This document shows, in pieces, positions 51,057 to 59,677 of a stretch of 64,000 nt of DNA. Every line of letters begins with the position of its first letter. The stretch's first letter is position 1. The notes under the pieces are model-generated. The model was not told where the DNA came from, did no database searches, and was given only the letters and a program-made list of their open reading frames with translations. Source of the stretch: Bacteroidales bacterium (GTDB lineage: Bacteria; Bacteroidota; Bacteroidia; Bacteroidales; GCA-2748055); contig JAGLOO010000012.1 of assembly GCA_023138875.1 (NCBI GenBank), forward strand, positions 1-64,000, given 5' to 3'. The position numbers were made by a program, and so were the translations under genes.

Positions 51057-51062
51057 GATTTG

Positions 51063-51070
51063 TATATTTG
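51063..51070 (+). promoter_or_regulatory. -7 promoter element for the yihY-like gene
   Basis: TATATTTG matches TAnnTTTG exactly and lies 19 bases before the ATG at 51090, ruling out a start at 51060. It is next to the divergent tlpA promoter, so the two may influence each other. Confidence 0.5.
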
Positions 51071-51089
51071 TTTTGCTAAAGAGAATGGC

Positions 51090-52394
51090 ATGCTAAAAAA
51101 GGTAAAGACCTTCTTTAAGGAGGAGATATGGACACATGATCTCACGTCCAAGTCCCGCCGAAAGGCTTTTTTAATCACACAATCCAGGATCTACATCCTT
51201 GCAATCAAAGGTTTTTTTGAGGACAGGGCTACTGTAAAGGCCGCTTCCCTGACCTATTTTACAATGCTCTCCATCGTTCCCATCTTCGCTATTGCCTTTG
51301 CCGTAGCCCGGAACTTTGGATTTGAGAACCGGCTGCATGAACTCATAAACAACAACATGCAGGGGCAAGGACAGGATGAGATTCTGAAATGGGTCACTGA
51401 CATGGTTGATAATCTCTTGAGCAATACCAAAGGAGGGATCCTGGCGGGAGTTGGTGGGGTGATCCTGTTCTGGTCTGTGATTCAGGTACTAAACAATATC
51501 GAAGCCGCTTTTAATGACATCTGGCAAATAAAGAAGGCCCGGAGTCCCGTAAGAAAATTCAGCGACTATCTGTCCATTATGATTCTTAGTCCGATTGCCA
51601 TCGGGCTTACGGGTAGTATGATGGTGAAGATCCAGTCTACGGCTGAGGAGATGGAGTTGTTTAAAGGCATCATTGTTTTGATGATTAAATCAGTTCCATA
51701 TATCTCTATTTGGCTCCTGTTCACCATTGTATATATTGTCATGCCCAATACCAAGGTGAAATTCAAGTACGCTGTGATAGCGGGTATTTTTGCAGGAACA
51801 GTTGCCATGATCTTTCAGGGTTTATACCAGGATCTTCAGATAGGGGTTTTCAGATTCAATACCCTGTATGGCAGTATAGCAGCTATTCCCCTGTTCCTTC
51901 TATGGCTGCAGATCACATGGCTGATCGTATTGAGTGGTGCTGAGATCTCATTTGCCTACCAGAACATTGAGAATTATGAATTTGAAGAGGATGCCCTGAA
52001 TCTGAGCGACAACAATAAACGGATCCTCACTTTGCTCATCGCATACCACATCATCAAGAATTTCGAGGAGGGCGGTGAGCCATGGAATACAGACATGCTC
52101 AGCCATGAACTGGGCATCCCTATCAGGCTGGTGAACCAACTGGTCTACGATCTCGTTAACGCAGGGATCCTGGCTGAACTTGCCTCGGATAATCCGAAGG
52201 ACCGCTCGTACCAGCCATCTGTGGATATCAGCATCATATCGGTAGACTTTATTTACCGTCAGCTTGAACAGGTAGGTGGCGACACCATGCATGTAACCGA
52301 GTCGGACGAACTGAAACGGATTACCAATATACATGAGCACATATTGCACTCCATTCGGGAATCGCCATCCAATGTTTTACTTAAGGACCTCTAA
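51090..52394 (+). CDS. YihY/virulence factor BrkB-family membrane protein
   Basis: The 434-residue protein belongs to the YihY/UPF0761 family (formerly mis-assigned as RNase BN). It has about six membrane helices; ATVKAASLTYFTMLSIVPIFAIAFAVA and the TLYGSIAAIPLFLLWLQITWLIVLSGAEISFAYQN region are typical. The C-terminal ~140 residues form a soluble domain with a winged-helix-like look (WNTDMLSHELGIPIRLVNQLVYDLVNAGIL). Function of the family is unclear. The next operon (his) is in the same direction but separated by a regulatory region. Confidence 0.87.
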   Translation: MLKKVKTFFKEEIWTHDLTSKSRRKAFLITQSRIYILAIKGFFEDRATVKAASLTYFTMLSIVPIFAIAFAVARNFGFENRLHELINNNMQGQGQDEILKWVTDMVDNLLSNTKGGILAGVGGVILFWSVIQVLNNIEAAFNDIWQIKKARSPVRKFSDYLSIMILSPIAIGLTGSMMVKIQSTAEEMELFKGIIVLMIKSVPYISIWLLFTIVYIVMPNTKVKFKYAVIAGIFAGTVAMIFQGLYQDLQIGVFRFNTLYGSIAAIPLFLLWLQITWLIVLSGAEISFAYQNIENYEFEEDALNLSDNNKRILTLLIAYHIIKNFEEGGEPWNTDMLSHELGIPIRLVNQLVYDLVNAGILAELASDNPKDRSYQPSVDISIISVDFIYRQLEQVGGDTMHVTESDELKRITNIHEHILHSIRESPSNVLLKDL

Positions 52395-52485
52395 CTATCG
52401 ATCTGAAAGCGAATCGTGTCAATAAGCGATAAATTAATCGTGCTATACATTGGTAATTACTAAATTATTATTTAATATTGCAGGA

Positions 52486-52493
52486 TAAATTTG
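52486..52493 (+). promoter_or_regulatory. Candidate -7 element for the his operon
   Basis: TAAATTTG matches TAnnTTTG exactly and ends only five bases before the leader-peptide ATG at 52499, so the transcript could be leaderless or nearly so. No -33 TTG at normal spacing is visible. A weaker candidate is TACATTGG at 52446-52453, which would give a leader of about 40 bases. Confidence 0.4.
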
Positions 52494-52498
52494 TAGAG

Positions 52499-52555
52499 AT
52501 GAGGTTTTACAGCAGGCATCGGGTTCATCATCACCATCACCATTTGAGTGGTTAG
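52499..52555 (+). CDS. hisL: Histidine operon leader peptide
   Basis: The 18-codon open frame ATG to TAG encodes MRFYSRHRVHHHHHHLSG. Seven of its 18 residues are His (7 and 10-15), six in a row using CAT and CAC. It sits between the yihY-like gene and hisG, with a strong terminator between its stop and the hisG start. Starvation for His-tRNA would stall the ribosome on the His run and change RNA folding, as in the enterobacterial hisL. The nearest upstream in-frame stop is 52454-52456, and 52499 is the only ATG. Not homologous in sequence to E. coli HisL beyond the His run. Confidence 0.85.
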   Translation: MRFYSRHRVHHHHHHLSG

Positions 52556-52560
52556 GGTCC

Positions 52561-52624
52561 CTTTGCAGGTAGTTGTATTCCGAATTCGATGTTGATAGGT
52601 TTGCAGATACTGCAGACCTTTTTT
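52561..52624 (+). terminator. his operon attenuator: intrinsic terminator with an upstream competing segment
   Basis: Arms 52597-52606 and 52610-52619 form a 10-bp stem with one G-T pair and a 3-nt loop, and a run of six T (52619-52624) follows at once, 17 bases before the hisG ATG. The heptamer TTTGCAG of the 5' arm (52600-52606) recurs at 52562-52568, so either copy can pair with CTGCAGA in the 3' arm. A longer pairing (52515-52526, leader codons, with 52582-52593) could govern which form occurs. These foldings are by hand. Confidence 0.82.
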
Positions 52625-52641
52625 CGTTTAAAAAAGTGTAT

Positions 52642-53499
52642 ATGGAAAAGCTTAGAATTGCTATTCAGAAATCAGGGCGGCTCAGTGAGAAATCATTGGC
52701 ACTTTTGAAGGAAGCGGGAATTTCTATAAACAATGGTTCTCGTAAACTTCTGTCCGTTGCCCAATCATTTCCTCTTGAGGTGATCTACCTCAGGGATGAT
52801 GATATTCCGCAATATGTGGAAGACGGGGTGGCCCATATTGGTATTGTGGGAGAGAATGAATTTGCAGAGAAAGCATGTGCTGTGGACCTGGTTGAAAGAC
52901 TGGGTTTTTCCAGGTGCCGTCTCTCCATTGCCATTCCTAAGTCGGAATCCTATGGCGGGATTGAAGATATGGATGGCAAGCGCATTGCCACTTCATATCC
53001 TGTGATTCTGGAAAAATACCTGGGCGAACATGGAATTAAAGCCGATCTCCACGTACTCAGTGGATCAGTTGAAATTGCTCCTTCCATTGGTCTGGCCGAT
53101 GCGATATTTGATATTGTAAGCTCGGGCAGTACGTTAATCAGCAATGGACTAAGGGAGGTGGAAACGGTAATGCATTCCGAAGCGGTGGTCATCGCCAACC
53201 GAAATCTGAAAGAGTTGGAACAGGGGCTGTTGACCGACCTGTTGTTCCGCATCCGTAGTGTGATGGCTGCTTCCAATAATAAGTACATCCTGTTGAATGC
53301 TCCCAATGACCGCCTCAAGGAGATCATTGATGTGATACCAGGTATGAAAAGCCCCACTGTGATGCCGCTGGCCGACGAGGGATGGAGTTCGGTCCATTCG
53401 GTGTTGAGTGAAAAGGAGTTCTGGGCGGTCATTGACAGGTTGCGGGAACTGGGTGCCCAAGGGATCCTTGTCATACCCATTGAGAAGATGATCATTTGA
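52642..53499 (+). CDS. hisG: ATP phosphoribosyltransferase, long form
   Basis: HisG catalyses the first step of histidine synthesis, ATP plus PRPP to phosphoribosyl-ATP. The 285-residue protein is the long form with a C-terminal regulatory (ACT-like) domain (about 210-285), so histidine feedback is expected and no HisZ is needed. It begins LRIAIQKSGRLSEKS and has GVAHIGIVGENEF and the PRPP loop DIVSSGSTLISNGL. I use the ATG at 52642: a longer reading would have to start inside the terminator region. Confidence 0.97.
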   Translation: MEKLRIAIQKSGRLSEKSLALLKEAGISINNGSRKLLSVAQSFPLEVIYLRDDDIPQYVEDGVAHIGIVGENEFAEKACAVDLVERLGFSRCRLSIAIPKSESYGGIEDMDGKRIATSYPVILEKYLGEHGIKADLHVLSGSVEIAPSIGLADAIFDIVSSGSTLISNGLREVETVMHSEAVVIANRNLKELEQGLLTDLLFRIRSVMAASNNKYILLNAPNDRLKEIIDVIPGMKSPTVMPLADEGWSSVHSVLSEKEFWAVIDRLRELGAQGILVIPIEKMII

Positions 53500-53542: not shown

Positions 53543-54832
53543 ATGAATATCATACATTACCCCGAACGGGAGAGCTGGTTAACGTTGCTTCAAAGACCGG
53601 AACTGAACTATTCAGTCCTGGAGGACCAGGTGCAACAGATTATTGAAGAAGTTGCCGGCAATGGAGACCGGGCAGTGAGGTCATATACAACGAAATTCGA
53701 CCAGGTTGAACTTAACTCGCTGGAAGTGTCTGAAGATGAAATTCAAGCCGCCAGGAACGAGATCAGTGATGCATTGAAGCGGGCCATTGATGAGGCCCAC
53801 TGGAACATTAAGACCTTTCATAAGAAGCAAATACACCATTCGGAAACGATCGTAACCACTGCAGGTGTACGCTGCTGGCAGAAACCGGTCCCCATCAGCA
53901 AAGTGGGACTCTATATACCTGGTGGATCAGCACCCCTGCTGTCAACTGTACTAATGCTGGGAATACCTGCAAAAATTGCCGGATGTAAGGAGGTTATCCT
54001 GTGTACACCTCCGGATGTTAACGGAAAGATCAGTGCTTCCATTCGATATATTGCCGACCTTCTGGGAATTGACCGGATCTTCCGTGTAGGAGGTGTTCAG
54101 GCCATAGCAGCCATGGCTCATGGTACGGAGAGTATTCCGTCTGTGAATAAAATCTTCGGTCCCGGGAACCAATACGTCACCATGGCAAAACAGATTGTCA
54201 GCCGTGAAACCGTGGCCATTGACATGCTGGCAGGTCCTTCCGAGCTGGCAGTTGTGGCTGATGCCACTTCCAATCCGGCTTTTATTGCATCTGATTTGCT
54301 GTCACAGGCAGAACATGGCCCCGATAGCCAGGTGTTGCTTCTGTCCGATTCCGGTGATCTGATTGATAAGGTTCAGGCTGAACTCAAAGTACAGCTATCC
54401 ACTTTGCCAAGGAAAGATATAGCAGCAGAGGCTTTGAACAACAGCAAGATGATCCTGATGAAAAGCCAGGAGGAGATCATAGATATGATAAATGATTACG
54501 CACCTGAACACCTGATCCTGGTCACAGAGAATTATAAGGAGCTTTCGGAACAGGTAGTCAACGCCGGTTCGGTATTCCTGGGGGATTATACCCCGGAAAG
54601 TGCCGGCGATTATGCTTCGGGGACCAACCATACCCTGCCCACCAATGGCTGGGCGCATGCCTACAGTGGAGTGAACATGGACAGTTTTTATAAAAAGATA
54701 ACCTTCCAGGAAATCAGTAAATACGGACTTTACAATATAGGTGATGCGGTGATGACCATGGCTGAAGCTGAACAACTGCAGGCCCATAGCAATGCGGTGG
54801 CCATCAGGCTTAAATCCAATGGCAATGGATAG
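53543..54832 (+). CDS. hisD: Histidinol dehydrogenase
   Basis: HisD oxidises L-histidinol to L-histidine in two NAD-dependent steps. The 429 residues match the family. Zinc ligands are Gln255 and His258 (SQAEHGPDSQ), Asp356 (SAGDYASGTNH) and His415 (LQAHSNAV). GLYIPGGSAPLLSTVLM and KIFGPGNQYV are signature segments. The start follows hisG by 43 bases, and hisC begins inside its last codons. Confidence 0.97.
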   Translation: MNIIHYPERESWLTLLQRPELNYSVLEDQVQQIIEEVAGNGDRAVRSYTTKFDQVELNSLEVSEDEIQAARNEISDALKRAIDEAHWNIKTFHKKQIHHSETIVTTAGVRCWQKPVPISKVGLYIPGGSAPLLSTVLMLGIPAKIAGCKEVILCTPPDVNGKISASIRYIADLLGIDRIFRVGGVQAIAAMAHGTESIPSVNKIFGPGNQYVTMAKQIVSRETVAIDMLAGPSELAVVADATSNPAFIASDLLSQAEHGPDSQVLLLSDSGDLIDKVQAELKVQLSTLPRKDIAAEALNNSKMILMKSQEEIIDMINDYAPEHLILVTENYKELSEQVVNAGSVFLGDYTPESAGDYASGTNHTLPTNGWAHAYSGVNMDSFYKKITFQEISKYGLYNIGDAVMTMAEAEQLQAHSNAVAIRLKSNGNG

Positions 54833-55883
54833 TTCAATTGAGATAAAGCAGCTGGTCAGGAATAACATCAGGGAACTGGTACCCTATTCTTCTGCAAGGG
54901 ATGAGTATTCAGGTTCTGCCTCGGTTTTCCTGGATGCCAATGAGAATCCCTATAACACTCCACTGAACCGCTATCCGGATCCGAAACAGCTTGAACTGAA
55001 AAAGGTAATTGCCCAAATAAAAGGGCAGCAGGTTGCAAACCTGTTCCTGGGGAATGGAAGCGACGAAGGAATCGACCTTTTGTTCAGGGTGTTATGTGAG
55101 CCAGGGAGGGATAATGTCATTGCCATTGATCCCACCTATGGGATGTACAGTGTGTGTGCAAAGATCAATAACGTGGATCAAAAGCATGTACTACTTGACA
55201 AGGATTTCGGGCTGGATCCCAATCGGGTGCTTGAAGCGGTTGACAACCGGACAAAGATGATTTTCCTCTGCTCACCCAATAATCCCACCTCAAATTCACT
55301 GGAACCGGAGGCCATGGTGAGGATCATTGACGGGGTCAATTGCATGGTGGTGGTGGATGAAGCTTATATTGATTTCAGCCGTGAACAGGGAATACTATCC
55401 CTGGTCCCTGAAAAGAAAAACCTGGTGGTATTGCAAACCCTCTCTAAGGCCTGGGGACTTGCAGGTATCCGCCTGGGGATGGTATTTGCCCATCAGGAAC
55501 TGATCGGTTACCTTTCAGGTGTGAAATATCCCTATAACATCAACTCTCTCTCTCTGGCAGAAGCGATGAAAAGCCTTAGAGATACAGGTGCCAGGGAGAA
55601 TTGGGTGCACCGGATACTGGAAGAACGCAAGAAACTCATTGAACAATTGAAATCACTCGCGTTTGTGAAGAAGGTCTATCCTTCGGATGCCAATTTCCTG
55701 CTGGTGCAGATGGAAAATCCGGGGCAGGTATATTCATATCTTATGGAAAAGGGCATTATCGTGCGAGACCGGTCTTCTGTACCCCTCTGCGATGGATGTC
55801 TCAGGATTACCGTGGGCACAGAAACGGAAAACCGGCAGCTTTGCAATGTGCTTGCAGCGTATGATCAAACACTGGAAAACTGA
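54825..55883 (+). CDS. hisC: Histidinol-phosphate aminotransferase
   Basis: This PLP enzyme converts imidazole-acetol phosphate to histidinol phosphate. The 352-residue protein has the PLP Lys208 in LQTLSKAWGLAGIRLG and the fold-type I motifs LGNGSDEGIDLL, SPNNPTSN and VDEAYIDF. The ATG at 54825 overlaps the hisD stop; an ATG two codons earlier is possible. It is ten bases before hisB. Confidence 0.97.
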   Translation: MDSSIEIKQLVRNNIRELVPYSSARDEYSGSASVFLDANENPYNTPLNRYPDPKQLELKKVIAQIKGQQVANLFLGNGSDEGIDLLFRVLCEPGRDNVIAIDPTYGMYSVCAKINNVDQKHVLLDKDFGLDPNRVLEAVDNRTKMIFLCSPNNPTSNSLEPEAMVRIIDGVNCMVVVDEAYIDFSREQGILSLVPEKKNLVVLQTLSKAWGLAGIRLGMVFAHQELIGYLSGVKYPYNINSLSLAEAMKSLRDTGARENWVHRILEERKKLIEQLKSLAFVKKVYPSDANFLLVQMENPGQVYSYLMEKGIIVRDRSSVPLCDGCLRITVGTETENRQLCNVLAAYDQTLEN

Positions 55884-55892
55884 TAAGAGCTT

Positions 55893-57014
55893 ATGAAAAG
55901 AGTCATTTTTCTTGACCGTGATGGTACATTGATCAAGGAACCACCGGATGATTACCAGGTGGATTCCCTGGAGAAACTGGAATTTCTGCCCGGGGTTTTC
56001 AGGAACCTATATAAATTGAGGCACTTTACCGGCTATGAACTCGTGGTGGTGTCCAACCAGGATGGAATGGGCACTGCTGCTTTTCCAGAGAATGATTTCA
56101 GGCTTCCACATGACAAATTCATCACTGCATTCAGGAATGAGGGGGTGGAATTTGATGCGGTTCACATTGATCCCTCATTACCTGAAGATCAATCTCCCAA
56201 CAGGAAACCCGGAACAGGAATGCTCCGGCAATATACGGAAGGGGATTATGATTTGAAGGGCTCTTTTGTGATCGGGGACCGTGTAACAGACCTGGAACTG
56301 GCAAAAAACCTGGGAGCAAGGAGTATTTTTTATGGTGGGAAGGAGATGCCCGGTTGGAATGAAAAGGGATTTACAGAGCAGGTCGCACTGGTGAGTGATG
56401 ACTGGGACAGTATTTACCGGTTTATCCGGGCAGACATGCGCCGAAGCCGGGTGAAAAGGGAAACGGGCGAAACTGAAATTACCGTGGAGGTTTCACTGGA
56501 TGGAGAAGGCTTAACCAATATATCCACTGGATTGGGCTTTTTCGATCACATGCTGGATCAATTGGGACGTCACGGGGGAATGGATCTTACCGTGAAAGTA
56601 ACCGGGGACCTCCAAGTGGATGAACACCATACCATTGAGGATACGGCCATTGCCCTGGGTGAAGCATTCTCAGAAGCCCTGGGAAATAAACGAGGCATTG
56701 AACGTTATGCTTTTGTGCTTCCCATGGACGATGCCCAGGCCTCAGTGTCACTGGATTTCGGAGGAAGGCCCTGGATTGAATGGAATGTGGAATTTCAGAG
56801 GGAAAAGATCGGTGATGTTCCTACAGAAATGTTCTTCCATTTCTTCAAGAGTTTTTCCGATGCAGCAAAATGCAACCTGAATATTACAGCGACAGGAAAG
56901 AATGAACATCATAAAATCGAATCGGTATTCAAAGGATTCGCAAGGACCATTAAAATGGCGGTAAAACTGGATCCGGAAAGCAATAGTCTGCCTACAACCA
57001 AAGGAAAACTTTAA
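55893..57014 (+). CDS. hisB: Bifunctional histidinol-phosphatase / imidazoleglycerol-phosphate dehydratase
   Basis: The 373-residue protein joins an N-terminal HAD phosphatase (about 1-170; FLDRDGTL, VVVSNQDG, NRKPGTGML, FVIGDRVTDLELA) and a C-terminal IGP dehydratase (about 178-373; FFDHMLDQLGRHGG, DEHHTIEDTAIALGEA, KNEHHKIESVFKGFA). The E. coli-type Cys/His zinc loop between the HAD motifs is absent here (FDAVHIDPSLPEDQ), as in other Bacteroidota HisB. It serves steps 7 and 9 of the pathway. Confidence 0.96.
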   Translation: MKRVIFLDRDGTLIKEPPDDYQVDSLEKLEFLPGVFRNLYKLRHFTGYELVVVSNQDGMGTAAFPENDFRLPHDKFITAFRNEGVEFDAVHIDPSLPEDQSPNRKPGTGMLRQYTEGDYDLKGSFVIGDRVTDLELAKNLGARSIFYGGKEMPGWNEKGFTEQVALVSDDWDSIYRFIRADMRRSRVKRETGETEITVEVSLDGEGLTNISTGLGFFDHMLDQLGRHGGMDLTVKVTGDLQVDEHHTIEDTAIALGEAFSEALGNKRGIERYAFVLPMDDAQASVSLDFGGRPWIEWNVEFQREKIGDVPTEMFFHFFKSFSDAAKCNLNITATGKNEHHKIESVFKGFARTIKMAVKLDPESNSLPTTKGKL

Positions 57015-57026
57015 ATATGCTGTTTG

Positions 57027-57608
57027 ATGAATGTAGCCATTATCAAATACAATGCAGGCAACATCAGGTCGGTGGATTATGCCCTTAAACGGCTGGGAGT
57101 ATCCGCAGAGATTACAGATGATCCGGATGCCATTGTTTCGGCCGATAGAGTGATCTTTCCCGGGGTGGGAGAAGCAGCGACGACCATGAAGTATCTGAAG
57201 GACAGGGAGCTGGATAGACTAATTGCCGGATTATCCCAGCCTGTACTGGGTATATGTCTCGGACAGCAGCTCATGTGCAGCTGGTCGGAAGAGAGGGATA
57301 CAAGTTGCATCGGTATTTTTGATCAGCCGGTCAGGCGTTTCCCCGATGGGCTCAAAGTGCCCCATATGGGATGGAACAGCCTGGATTCTGTAAGTGGCAC
57401 TCTGTTCGATGAGACCCTGAAAGGATCGTATGTCTATTTTGTACATTCCTATTATGTACCGGTATGTGAAGATACAGCAGCCGAAACGGAATATATGGTC
57501 CCATTCAGTGCAGCCATGCAGAAAGATAACTTCTTTGCCACCCAGTTCCACCCGGAAAAAAGTGGTGGCCCGGGTCACAAAATACTCTCAAATTTTATGA
57601 AGTTATGA
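57027..57608 (+). CDS. hisH: Imidazole glycerol phosphate synthase, glutaminase subunit
   Basis: HisH supplies ammonia from glutamine to HisF. The 193-residue class I amidotransferase has the triad Cys77 (GICLGQQ), His175 and Glu177 (FHPEKSG). The ATG at 57027 is preferred to a TTG at 57024. Its stop overlaps the hisA start (ATGA). All three residues of the triad are intact. Confidence 0.97.
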   Translation: MNVAIIKYNAGNIRSVDYALKRLGVSAEITDDPDAIVSADRVIFPGVGEAATTMKYLKDRELDRLIAGLSQPVLGICLGQQLMCSWSEERDTSCIGIFDQPVRRFPDGLKVPHMGWNSLDSVSGTLFDETLKGSYVYFVHSYYVPVCEDTAAETEYMVPFSAAMQKDNFFATQFHPEKSGGPGHKILSNFMKL

Positions 57609-58333
57609 TCGAAATCATTCCGGCCATAGATATCATCGAAGGAAAGTGTGTAAGGCTTACCCAGGGGGATTACCAGCGAAAGCAGGAATACGGTGATCCG
57701 CTTGAAATGGCCATGATGTTCGAGGACCACGGAATAAAAAGGATACACCTGGTGGACCTGGATGGTGCCAGGGAAAAGCGGGTGGTTAATTACCGGGTGC
57801 TTGAGCAGATCGCCACCCGGACAGGTCTGGTGATTGATGTGGGTGGTGGGTTGAGATCCGATGATGATGTGCGAGTTATGTTTGAATCAGGAGCACATAT
57901 GATCACCGGTGGTAGCATTGCAGTGAAGGACCGTCCCGTATTCATGGGGTGGTTGAAACGATACGGTCCCGGCAAGATCATCCTTGGTGCAGATTTCAGG
58001 GAAGAGAAAATTGCAGTTTCGGGATGGTATGAAGAGACTTCCCTTGATCTCATGGATTTTCTCACGGAATACAGCAAACTGGGAATTGAAAAGGCCATCT
58101 GCACCGATATTGCCAGGGACGGGATGCTGGAAGGGCCCTCCCTGGAGGTATATATCCGTATCAAGAAAGAACAGGGCACATTGTATCTTATTGCAAGTGG
58201 CGGGATCAGTGACATGAAAGATATTGAAAAACTGGATAAATCGGGGATCGACGGCGTGATCGTGGGAAAAGCAATTTATGAAAAGAAGATTAGCCTGAAA
58301 ACGCTTGAAGTATATGTTTTATTAAACGGTTGA
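57605..58333 (+). CDS. hisA: ProFAR isomerase (phosphoribosylformimino-AICAR-phosphate isomerase)
   Basis: The 242-residue (beta/alpha)8 enzyme opens the sugar ring of ProFAR. It begins [17 protein letters not shown] with catalytic Asp9, and has [13 protein letters not shown] and the second acidic residue in LGADFRE. The phosphate-binding SGGISDM is also present. It overlaps hisH by four bases and is closely followed by hisF. Confidence 0.97.
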
Positions 58334-58335
58334 AC

Positions 58336-59088
58336 ATGCTGGCTAAAAGGATTATACCCTGCCTGGACATCAGGGACGGGAAAACGGTAAAGGGAATCAA
58401 TTTCGAAAATGTGGTGGATGTTGGAGACCCGGTTGAACTGGGTGCTAAATACGCCCGGGACGGTGCCGACGAACTGGTCTATCTGGATATTACAGCCACC
58501 CATGAGGGCCGGAAGCTCTTTGCGGATCTGGTGAGGCGCATTGCCGGGCACCTGAACATTCCGTTTACTGTTGGCGGAGGGATTAATCATGTGGGTGATG
58601 CGGAAATTCTGCTCTCCGCGGGAGCTGACAAGGTATCCATTAATTCATCGGCGGTTAAGGATCCCGGGGTGATTGACCGGATCGCAGGAGGCTTCGGGAA
58701 CCAGTTTGTGGTGGTGGCCATTGATGCACAGTATGCGGATGACAGGTGGACCGTATATGTGAATGGGGGCAGGATTCCCACTGAAAAAGAGTTATTCAGC
58801 TGGGCAGAAGAAGCCCAGGACAGAGGGGCCGGGGAGATCCTTTTTACTTCCATGAACCACGATGGCACCAAAAATGGTTATGCCTGTGAAGCCCTGAGGG
58901 AACTCTCATCAACGCTTTCCATCCCGGTGATTGCATCCGGGGGAGCAGGGAAGAAGGAGCATTTCGTGGAAGTATTTGACAGGGGGTGTGCCGATGCTGC
59001 CCTAGCAGCCAGTATCTTTCATTACAACGAGATCCCCATACCGGAATTAAAGTCATATTTGAAACAAAACAACATTATCGTCAGATAA
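58336..59088 (+). CDS. hisF: Imidazole glycerol phosphate synthase, cyclase subunit
   Basis: HisF forms IGP and AICAR from PRFAR with ammonia from HisH. The 250-residue barrel has catalytic Asp11 in [15 protein letters not shown] and the second Asp in [20 protein letters not shown] and [13 protein letters not shown] bind the phosphates. I use the ATG at 58336 rather than a TTG six bases before. It is a paralogue of hisA next to it. Confidence 0.97.
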
Positions 59089-59089
59089 C

Positions 59090-59677
59090 ATGGATTTTGA
59101 AAAACTGAACGGAATCATTCCGGCCATTATCCAGGATTCAATAACCGATAAGGTTTTAATGCTTGGATTCATGACTGCGGAAGCGCTGGATAAAACGCGA
59201 AAAGAGGGGAAAGTCACCTTTTTCAGCCGAACTAAAAACAGGCTGTGGACCAAGGGAGAGGAGAGTGGTAATTTCCTTCACGTGGAGGAAATCCTGGAAG
59301 ATTGTGACAATGATACACTGTTGATCAAGGTCAGACCGGAAGGCCCGGTGTGTCATACCGGGAGCGATACCTGTTTTGATGAGCAGAACCAGGGTGATCT
59401 GGTGTTTATATCCAGGCTTCAGGAGCTGATACAAAAGAGGAAAGAGGAGATGCCTGAAAACTCCTATACCACCAGCCTCTTCAAGGCGGGTATCAATAAA
59501 ATTGCACAGAAGGTGGGAGAGGAGGCCGTTGAGCTGGTGATCGAATCAAAGGACGATGATGATGCCCTGTTCCTGAATGAAGCTGCTGACCTGGTGTATC
59601 ACCTGCTGGTACTGCTGTCTGCCCGTGGATATGGCATCAAAGATGTTGCCGGGATACTGGAACAGCGTCATCTATAA
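59090..59677 (+). CDS. hisI: Bifunctional phosphoribosyl-AMP cyclohydrolase / phosphoribosyl-ATP pyrophosphatase
   Basis: The 195-residue protein fuses HisI (about 1-105; VTFFSRTKNRLWTKGEESGN, the zinc Cys in CDND and CHTGSDTCF) with HisE (about 112-195; KIAQKVGEEAVELVIESKD). These are steps 2 and 3 of the pathway. It begins one base after hisF and closes the his operon, which thus contains every gene from hisG to hisIE. Confidence 0.96.
   Translation: MDFEKLNGIIPAIIQDSITDKVLMLGFMTAEALDKTRKEGKVTFFSRTKNRLWTKGEESGNFLHVEEILEDCDNDTLLIKVRPEGPVCHTGSDTCFDEQNQGDLVFISRLQELIQKRKEEMPENSYTTSLFKAGINKIAQKVGEEAVELVIESKDDDDALFLNEAADLVYHLLVLLSARGYGIKDVAGILEQRHL

Follow-up and report, generated by a model that had tools for sequence, protein, structure and literature searches.

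A probable histidine attenuator with a His-rich leader peptide ahead of the his operon of a Bacteroidales bacterium, and its conservation in Bacteroidota

Introduction

How is the histidine operon of a Bacteroidales bacterium controlled, given that a short reading frame with six consecutive His codons and a terminator-like hairpin lie directly ahead of it? The locus belongs to a 64,000-nucleotide stretch of contig JAGLOO010000012.1, referred to here as the window. RNA attenuators of his genes have been named in Proteobacteria, and new ones have been proposed in Firmicutes, in the text accessible to us (PMC9413887). In Flavobacterium psychrophilum, which shares its phylum with the window, strong clues for leader-peptide attenuation were described upstream of amino-acid biosynthesis operons; the word 'histidine' does not occur in the main text of that paper, and his may figure in its supplementary tables (PMC9723704). 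A paper on Bacteroidota his genes mentions attenuation once in its accessible text, for Salmonella and Escherichia coli (PMC8305728).

A search of titles and the beginnings of abstracts returned no publication on a Bacteroidota his leader. Lopatovskaya, Seliverstov and Lyubetsky reportedly carried out a large-scale prediction of attenuators before amino-acid operons (Mol Biol, 2010; cited in PMC4833913), and this survey may list some. Leader-peptide attenuation has been suggested in the phylum already; the breadth of His-leader conservation described below was not found in print. Here, we propose that the region is very probably a ribosome-mediated transcription attenuator of hisGDCBHAF-IE, which would permit full transcription only when charged histidyl-tRNA is scarce.

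The leader, the terminator and the his operon

The anatomy of the locus can be read directly from the window (Table 1). The leader peptide MRFYSRHRVHHHHHHLSG, encoded at 52499-52555, contains seven His among its 18 residues, six of them consecutive; on re-reading the frame, the coordinates and counts of the original prediction held. Among short ORFs (6-50 aa) on both strands of the 64-kb window, the leader alone has at least five His in six residues, and lowering the threshold to four in six yields two ORFs on the + strand (the leader counted) and one on the - strand. Downstream, the operon is complete, as had been claimed, and its order is hisGDCBHAF-IE, all eight genes exceeding their NCBIfam model cut-offs in a profile search. 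The 10-bp hairpin and six T that the original prediction placed just before hisG were recovered at 52597-52624: AGGTTTGCAG-ATA-CTGCAGACCT (52597-52619) forms 10 pairs, one of them T.G, and the first T of the run (52619-52624) closes the stem. Two hallmarks of an attenuator are accordingly present, a short leader ORF rich in His codons and an intrinsic terminator between it and hisG.

Table 1. Coordinates of the features at the his locus, as positions in the window
Feature	Position	Strand	Basis or remark
YihY/BrkB-type membrane protein gene, upstream of leader	51060..52394	+	104 nt before leader
Candidate -33 element ATTG (one mismatch to TTTG)	52449..52452	+	20 nt before -7 box
Candidate -7 box TAATATTG	52473..52480	+	consensus TAnnTTTG; predicts start ~52485, 14-nt 5' UTR
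Second, perfect -7 box TAAATTTG	52486..52493	+	would leave 1-nt 5' UTR
Leader peptide ORF MRFYSRHRVHHHHHHLSG*	52499..52555	+	sequence, conservation
Segment 1, protector 5' side	52508..52526 (52508-52512, 52516-52521, 52524-52526)	+	genus alignment, RNAalifold, pair counts
Six consecutive His codons (codons 10-15), proposed stall site	52526..52543	+	sequence
3' side of helix 1:2	52555..52577 (52555-52557, 52561-52566, 52573-52577)	+	RNAalifold, pair counts
Segment 2 proper, proposed antiterminator strand (TGTATTCC; mostly TGTAAYCC in genus)	52574..52581	+	7 pairs with arm 3
Segment 3, terminator 5' arm (AGGTTTGCAG)	52597..52606	+	sequence; invariant in 17/17 genus members
Segment 4, terminator 3' arm (CTGCAGACCT)	52610..52619	+	sequence, genus alignment
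T-run of intrinsic terminator	52619..52624	+	sequence
hisG, long form with C-terminal domain	52642..53499	+	TIGR00070 and TIGR03455 over cut-off
hisD	53543..54832	+	TIGR00069
hisC, start uncertain (54792 or 54828)	54828..55883	+	TIGR01141
hisB, bifunctional	55893..57014	+	NF003937
hisH	57024..57608	+	TIGR01855
hisA	57605..58333	+	TIGR00007
hisF	58330..59088	+	TIGR00735
hisIE	59090..59677	+	NF002747

The hairpin has the most pairs among the 10 terminator-like sites between 52000 and 60000. Shuffled versions of that region average 7.4 such sites; a hairpin by itself is thus no proof, and conservation is the better evidence for a terminator. Indeed, a terminator score of at least 28 was reached by 54 of the 92 leaders of the phylum sample described below, as against 7 of 1,840 shuffled copies. 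Folding of the whole leader RNA of the window revealed no unusual stability (z -1.52; 22/200 shuffles fold equally well). The abundance of chance sites also bears on a rival explanation. On this view, the hairpin is the plain terminator of the YihY-like gene, which lies on the same strand and ends 104 nt upstream of the leader, while the His-rich frame would be an accidental or unrelated small ORF.

Conservation of the His leader

HisG was detected in 45 of 61 near genomes, the window's own genome counted. A His-rich leader precedes hisG in 42 of these 45, namely in 17/17 members of the genus, 25/25 of the family and 17/20 of the rest of the order; the criterion was three His in eight residues for these near relatives and three His in six for the phylum sample. 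A second collection comprised loci picked by similarity to the window's HisG. Together, the two collections gave 91 dereplicated upstream regions, 57 of which carry a leader once two false ORFs (L070 and L074) are removed. The leader is absent from the other 34, which include all six Prevotella-titled and all six Paludibacter-titled loci, and in three of the 34 the contig leaves less than 400 nt upstream. The Prevotella-titled loci (L058, L059, L061, L069, L073 and L075) encode HisG proteins 60-64% identical to that of the window, and their lineage may have lost the leader.

In a sample spread over the phylum, HisG was found in 204 of 238 genomes, and 110 of the 204 upstream regions were read: all 53 from the same class, one from the same order, and 56 of 149 others, hand-picked for family spread. 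His leaders occur in 92 of the 110 (same class 53/53, same order 1/1, other classes 38/56); the same reading of the reverse strand returned 4/110. Close sequences inflate these counts, three phylum leaders being identical over their first 80 nt. The original prediction had been made to depend on a His run and terminator shared by relatives, and the near genomes and the phylum regions alike attest to their conservation.

These counts, with a His leader standing beside hisG in every family member and in most phylum regions, weigh against an ordinary terminator of the YihY-like gene. The same holds for a promoter-like box at a near-constant distance from the leader AUG in 23/25 family members (although such boxes also appear in 799/2980 shuffles), and for terminator arms that co-vary with antiterminator strands close to the leader, as described below. 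Taken together, we regard an ordinary terminator beside a chance ORF as highly improbable.

All 17 genus members have identical terminator arms and an identical T-run, and for this reason the genus says nothing on terminator pairing. The invariance does bear on control at the level of translation, in which the RNA structures would mask or unmask the hisG start with no stop in transcription. Attenuators of such a type have been described, according to the accessible text of one survey (PMC9413887), and some of the phylum leaders come without a terminator. In the window, however, the strong hairpin runs into six T that end 17 nt ahead of the hisG start (52642), and these six T are unchanged throughout the genus. 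Control at the level of translation is, in our judgement, very unlikely at this locus.

A protector helix between the leader and the RNA past its stop codon

Analysis of the genus alignment with RNAalifold returned the terminator and a helix joining leader codons 6-10 to the RNA past the stop codon (helix 1:2). Segment 1 thus sits inside the leader ORF, ahead of the His run and reaching into its beginning. A pair-count test was carried out on the RNAalifold helix extended by its UACAG/UUGUA part. In the genus, 91.0% of the cells are paired, compared with 89.3 in shuffles (2/500 as high) and 21.6-58.3% in slid registers, and five cells are altered on both sides, compared with 1.0 in shuffles. 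As counter-evidence, the register slid by -3 has four pairs with two-sided changes to the structure's three; moreover, the pair types in the genus show no excess over shuffles (83/500).

In a swap test, each strand is paired with its own or with another member's partner. Across 25 family members with widely differing leaders, own partners gave -12.65 kcal/mol and swapped partners -10.03, none of 20,000 permutations being as good; when seven close relatives were omitted, 2/20,000 were. In four loci (L043, L009, L011 and L015), the partner stretches depart from the genus norm and are still long mutual complements. The complementarity between own partners in this family is not random, and it supports a helix 1:2 that would block the antiterminator when the leader is vacant. 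The window sequence itself breaks two of the 15 pairs.

The same pairing speaks to the idea that selection acts on the protein sequence of the small His-rich peptide, which would itself be the product and might, for instance, bind metal. The region around RQHSVHHHHHH is indeed well conserved across much of the genus. Beyond the genus, however, little except His richness is kept, and the codons before the His run complement the RNA past the stop codon in a partner-specific manner, for which a peptide function has no need. A functional peptide as the reason for conservation strikes us as exceedingly improbable.

The proposed antiterminator

About 16 nt past the leader stop codon lies a box, UGUAAYCC; in 15/17 genus members, seven of its eight positions complement arm 3. 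Of 119 cells in the genus, 97.5% are paired, with no variation, compared with 16.0-50.4% in slid registers; the window breaks one of the seven pairs (its box being UGUAUUCC), and L092 breaks two. Arm 3 (GGUUUGCAG) is nearly invariant in the window's family, which makes the swap test for helix 2:3 there (z +0.6) uninformative. In this family, the conserved box and arm would form the antiterminator. In several species, the leader opens with the codons AGGUUUUACAG, which resemble arm 3 (AGGUUUGCAG); such a likeness would be expected of two strands that compete for one partner.

Outside the family, the terminator's 5' arm is complementary to the RNA around the leader stop codon, and both stretches co-vary. 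In the swap test, none of 20,000 permutations was as good as the own partners in 27 such leaders. A second set of 53 leaders, none shared with the 27 (one of 54 was dropped, its stretch being too short), gave -13.65 for own and -9.20 for swapped partners (z -11.8; 0/20,000 permutations), and capping it at three per family (25 leaders) left z at -9.2. Own-partner complementarity is thus non-random in other families, which supports an antiterminator 2:3 in these homologous leaders.

Single-leader energetics were computed for 52 leaders. Five loci were left out, L047 and L104, for which no terminator was found, L045 and L048, which have no real terminator, and L019, in which the finder misplaced the hairpin; the same five were excluded from the stall model and from the swap tests on 25 and 27 leaders, the last three of them by our own choice. 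Taken singly, 17 of the 52 antiterminators are better than shuffles (z below -1.64), with a mean z of -0.91 and values near 0 for genus members; the duplex of the window is no better than its shuffles (z -0.7). In an equilibrium stall model of the 52 leaders, the mean probability that arm 3 pairs with upstream RNA is 0.72 with a stalled ribosome, 0.40 with the ribosome at the stop codon and 0.46 with no ribosome, the stalled value exceeding that at the stop codon in 32 leaders and falling below it in three. The model serves as an illustration without a shuffled control, and deleting 5' RNA by itself frees partners. For the window, the values are 0.56 free, 0.63 stalled and 0.65 at the stop codon, which is no useful difference. 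The leader region of the window has drifted and exemplifies the switch only weakly.

The positions of the strands suggest two layouts. In 23/27 leaders outside the family, the best antiterminator strand starts no further downstream than the end of the leader ORF, and a ribosome completing the leader would cover it. The window's family mostly has the strand further downstream, where the codons preceding the His run can pair with it; termination would then be permitted once the ribosome has left and 1:2 has re-formed.

Candidate promoter and translation start of the leader

A transcription map of F. psychrophilum provided the -7 box consensus, TAnnTTTG at -12 to -5 (PMC9723704, as far as its text was accessible). 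A box at a spacing that predicts a 5' UTR of 13-14 nt precedes the leader in 23/25 family members, the window included. An exact TTTG stands 18-21 nt before the -7 box in 15/25 members; the window is not among these. Automated choice favoured the second box of the window (52486-52493), which we rank below the box at 52473-52480 because a second -7 box near the AUG is absent from the 24 remaining family members. A near-leaderless start from the second box is possible. Box detection also fires in 799/2980 shuffled stretches, and the predicted UTR lengths are soft for that reason.

For comparison, the commonest 5' UTR in Bacteroides thetaiotaomicron is 23 nt, by the accessible text of one study (PMC7366714). 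Within 20 nt upstream of the leader AUG, AGGAGG is present in only one of the 25 family members (L099) and a bare AGGA in four others. Bacteroidota largely do without Shine-Dalgarno sequences. The remark in the original prediction that their use is unusual here fits both the rarity of AGGAGG (1/25) and the frequency of a -7 box with a short predicted UTR (23/25). Among 115 leaders with a detected box, the predicted transcription start falls at most about 3 nt from the AUG in 19 (L045, L048 and others, and the window if its box at 52486-52493 is used); these are possibly leaderless leader peptides.

Proposed mechanism and comparison with known systems

From this arrangement, we infer how the locus would work, from an active promoter and a translated leader to ribosome stalling, read-through and regulation. 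Transcription would start near 52485, and a ribosome would initiate at the leader AUG about 14 nt further on, without a clear Shine-Dalgarno sequence. When His is plentiful, the ribosome would pass the six His codons and depart; segment 1 would then pair with segment 2 past the stop codon, segment 3 would be left for segment 4, and the 3:4 hairpin with its T-run would halt transcription ahead of hisG. When His is short, the ribosome would stall on the His codons and mask segment 1, such that segment 2 could pair with segment 3 before segment 4 emerges, and RNA polymerase would continue into hisG. The original prediction had recognised the logic of ribosome-mediated attenuation; conservation and the swap tests lend it support, that for helix 2:3 coming only from outside the window's family.

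The his attenuator of E. coli and Salmonella (RF00514, His_leader) shares with the window a run of His codons in the leader, a terminator before hisG, a complete his operon and competing helices. They differ in that the window has no clear Shine-Dalgarno sequence and a layout of four segments, the first being the leader before the His run; the enterobacterial his leader has six. The RF00514 model scored the leader region at 16.4 bits (E 2) against a gathering score of 49, and membership of that family was rejected. No Rfam family reached its gathering score anywhere in the window. A His-specific T-box riboswitch was likewise rejected, as no covariance model match lies upstream of hisG: none was found at the gathering threshold in the window, and none was among the eight matches up to E 10 in 52400-52700. 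The His-leader attenuators proposed in the Bacillus cereus group, Peptostreptococcaceae and Erysipelotrichales follow the same logic, with a short leader, three to five His codons in a row, and a terminator and antiterminator (PMC9413887). These belong to Firmicutes, and 'Bacteroidetes' has no occurrence in the accessible text of that paper.

With the present locus, His-leader control would reach past the two groups for which the accessible text of that survey names it, Proteobacteria and Firmicutes (PMC9413887); the locus also points to an RNA family missed by the Rfam model. The anatomy stands before hisG in 53/53 of the class members sampled, some of which lack a terminator, and could serve as a natural reporter for transcription-translation coupling in Bacteroidota. 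Classical attenuation requires a ribosome that follows closely behind RNA polymerase and starts reliably on a very short transcript.

Leaders without a terminator

The 149 leaders of the two samples (57 and 92) comprise 104 with a strong terminator, 34 without and 11 intermediate cases. Median values for the strong-terminator leaders are 19 residues, five His and a last His seven codons before the stop; for the terminator-less leaders, they are 26.5 residues, nine His and a last His one codon before the stop. The last His falls within two codons of the stop in 24/34 terminator-less leaders versus 7/104 with a strong terminator, in counts that ignore kinship.

One family is terminator-less throughout, its 18 regions read (L114, L119, L121-L124, L127, L129, L130, L132, L135, L140, L191, L204, L211, L215, L218 and L219) having 18 leaders and no strong terminator; further leaders without a strong intrinsic terminator are L113, L133, L136, L118, L045, L047 and L048. 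In the gap between leader and hisG of the 18-region family, the fractions of C and G are 0.246 and 0.086, compared with 0.174 and 0.146 before the leader. A C-rich, G-poor gap is as expected of a Rho-loading site, and the terminator-less His leaders may represent a Rho-dependent variant; a TnaC-like arrangement in them is a guess.

Tentatively, and with more doubt than confidence, a wider history can be sketched. Across much of the phylum, a His-sensing leader might be an old means of controlling the his operon, with ribosomes starting near the 5' end without a Shine-Dalgarno sequence, and it might have been re-wired more than once. In some lineages, the terminator would have been lost, the peptide lengthened and the His codons shifted up to the stop, with control passing, for example, to Rho; a ribosome at the last His codons would then cover the Rho-loading stretch.

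Other leaders in the same genome

A search for leaders ahead of the trpE-like, leuA-like and thrA genes in the window's own genome gave none that convinced in the stretches examined, some of which stop short of the operon starts. On contig C17 of this genome, an Ile/Leu/Val-rich leader, MTKSILHIILVVVVLVLIPGAT, lies upstream of ilvD (L141:1240-1308) and is followed, ahead of that gene, by a hairpin (AAGCCATTCTC...GAGGATGGCTT) and a T-run. It is likely a second attenuator in the same genome, for branched-chain amino acids.
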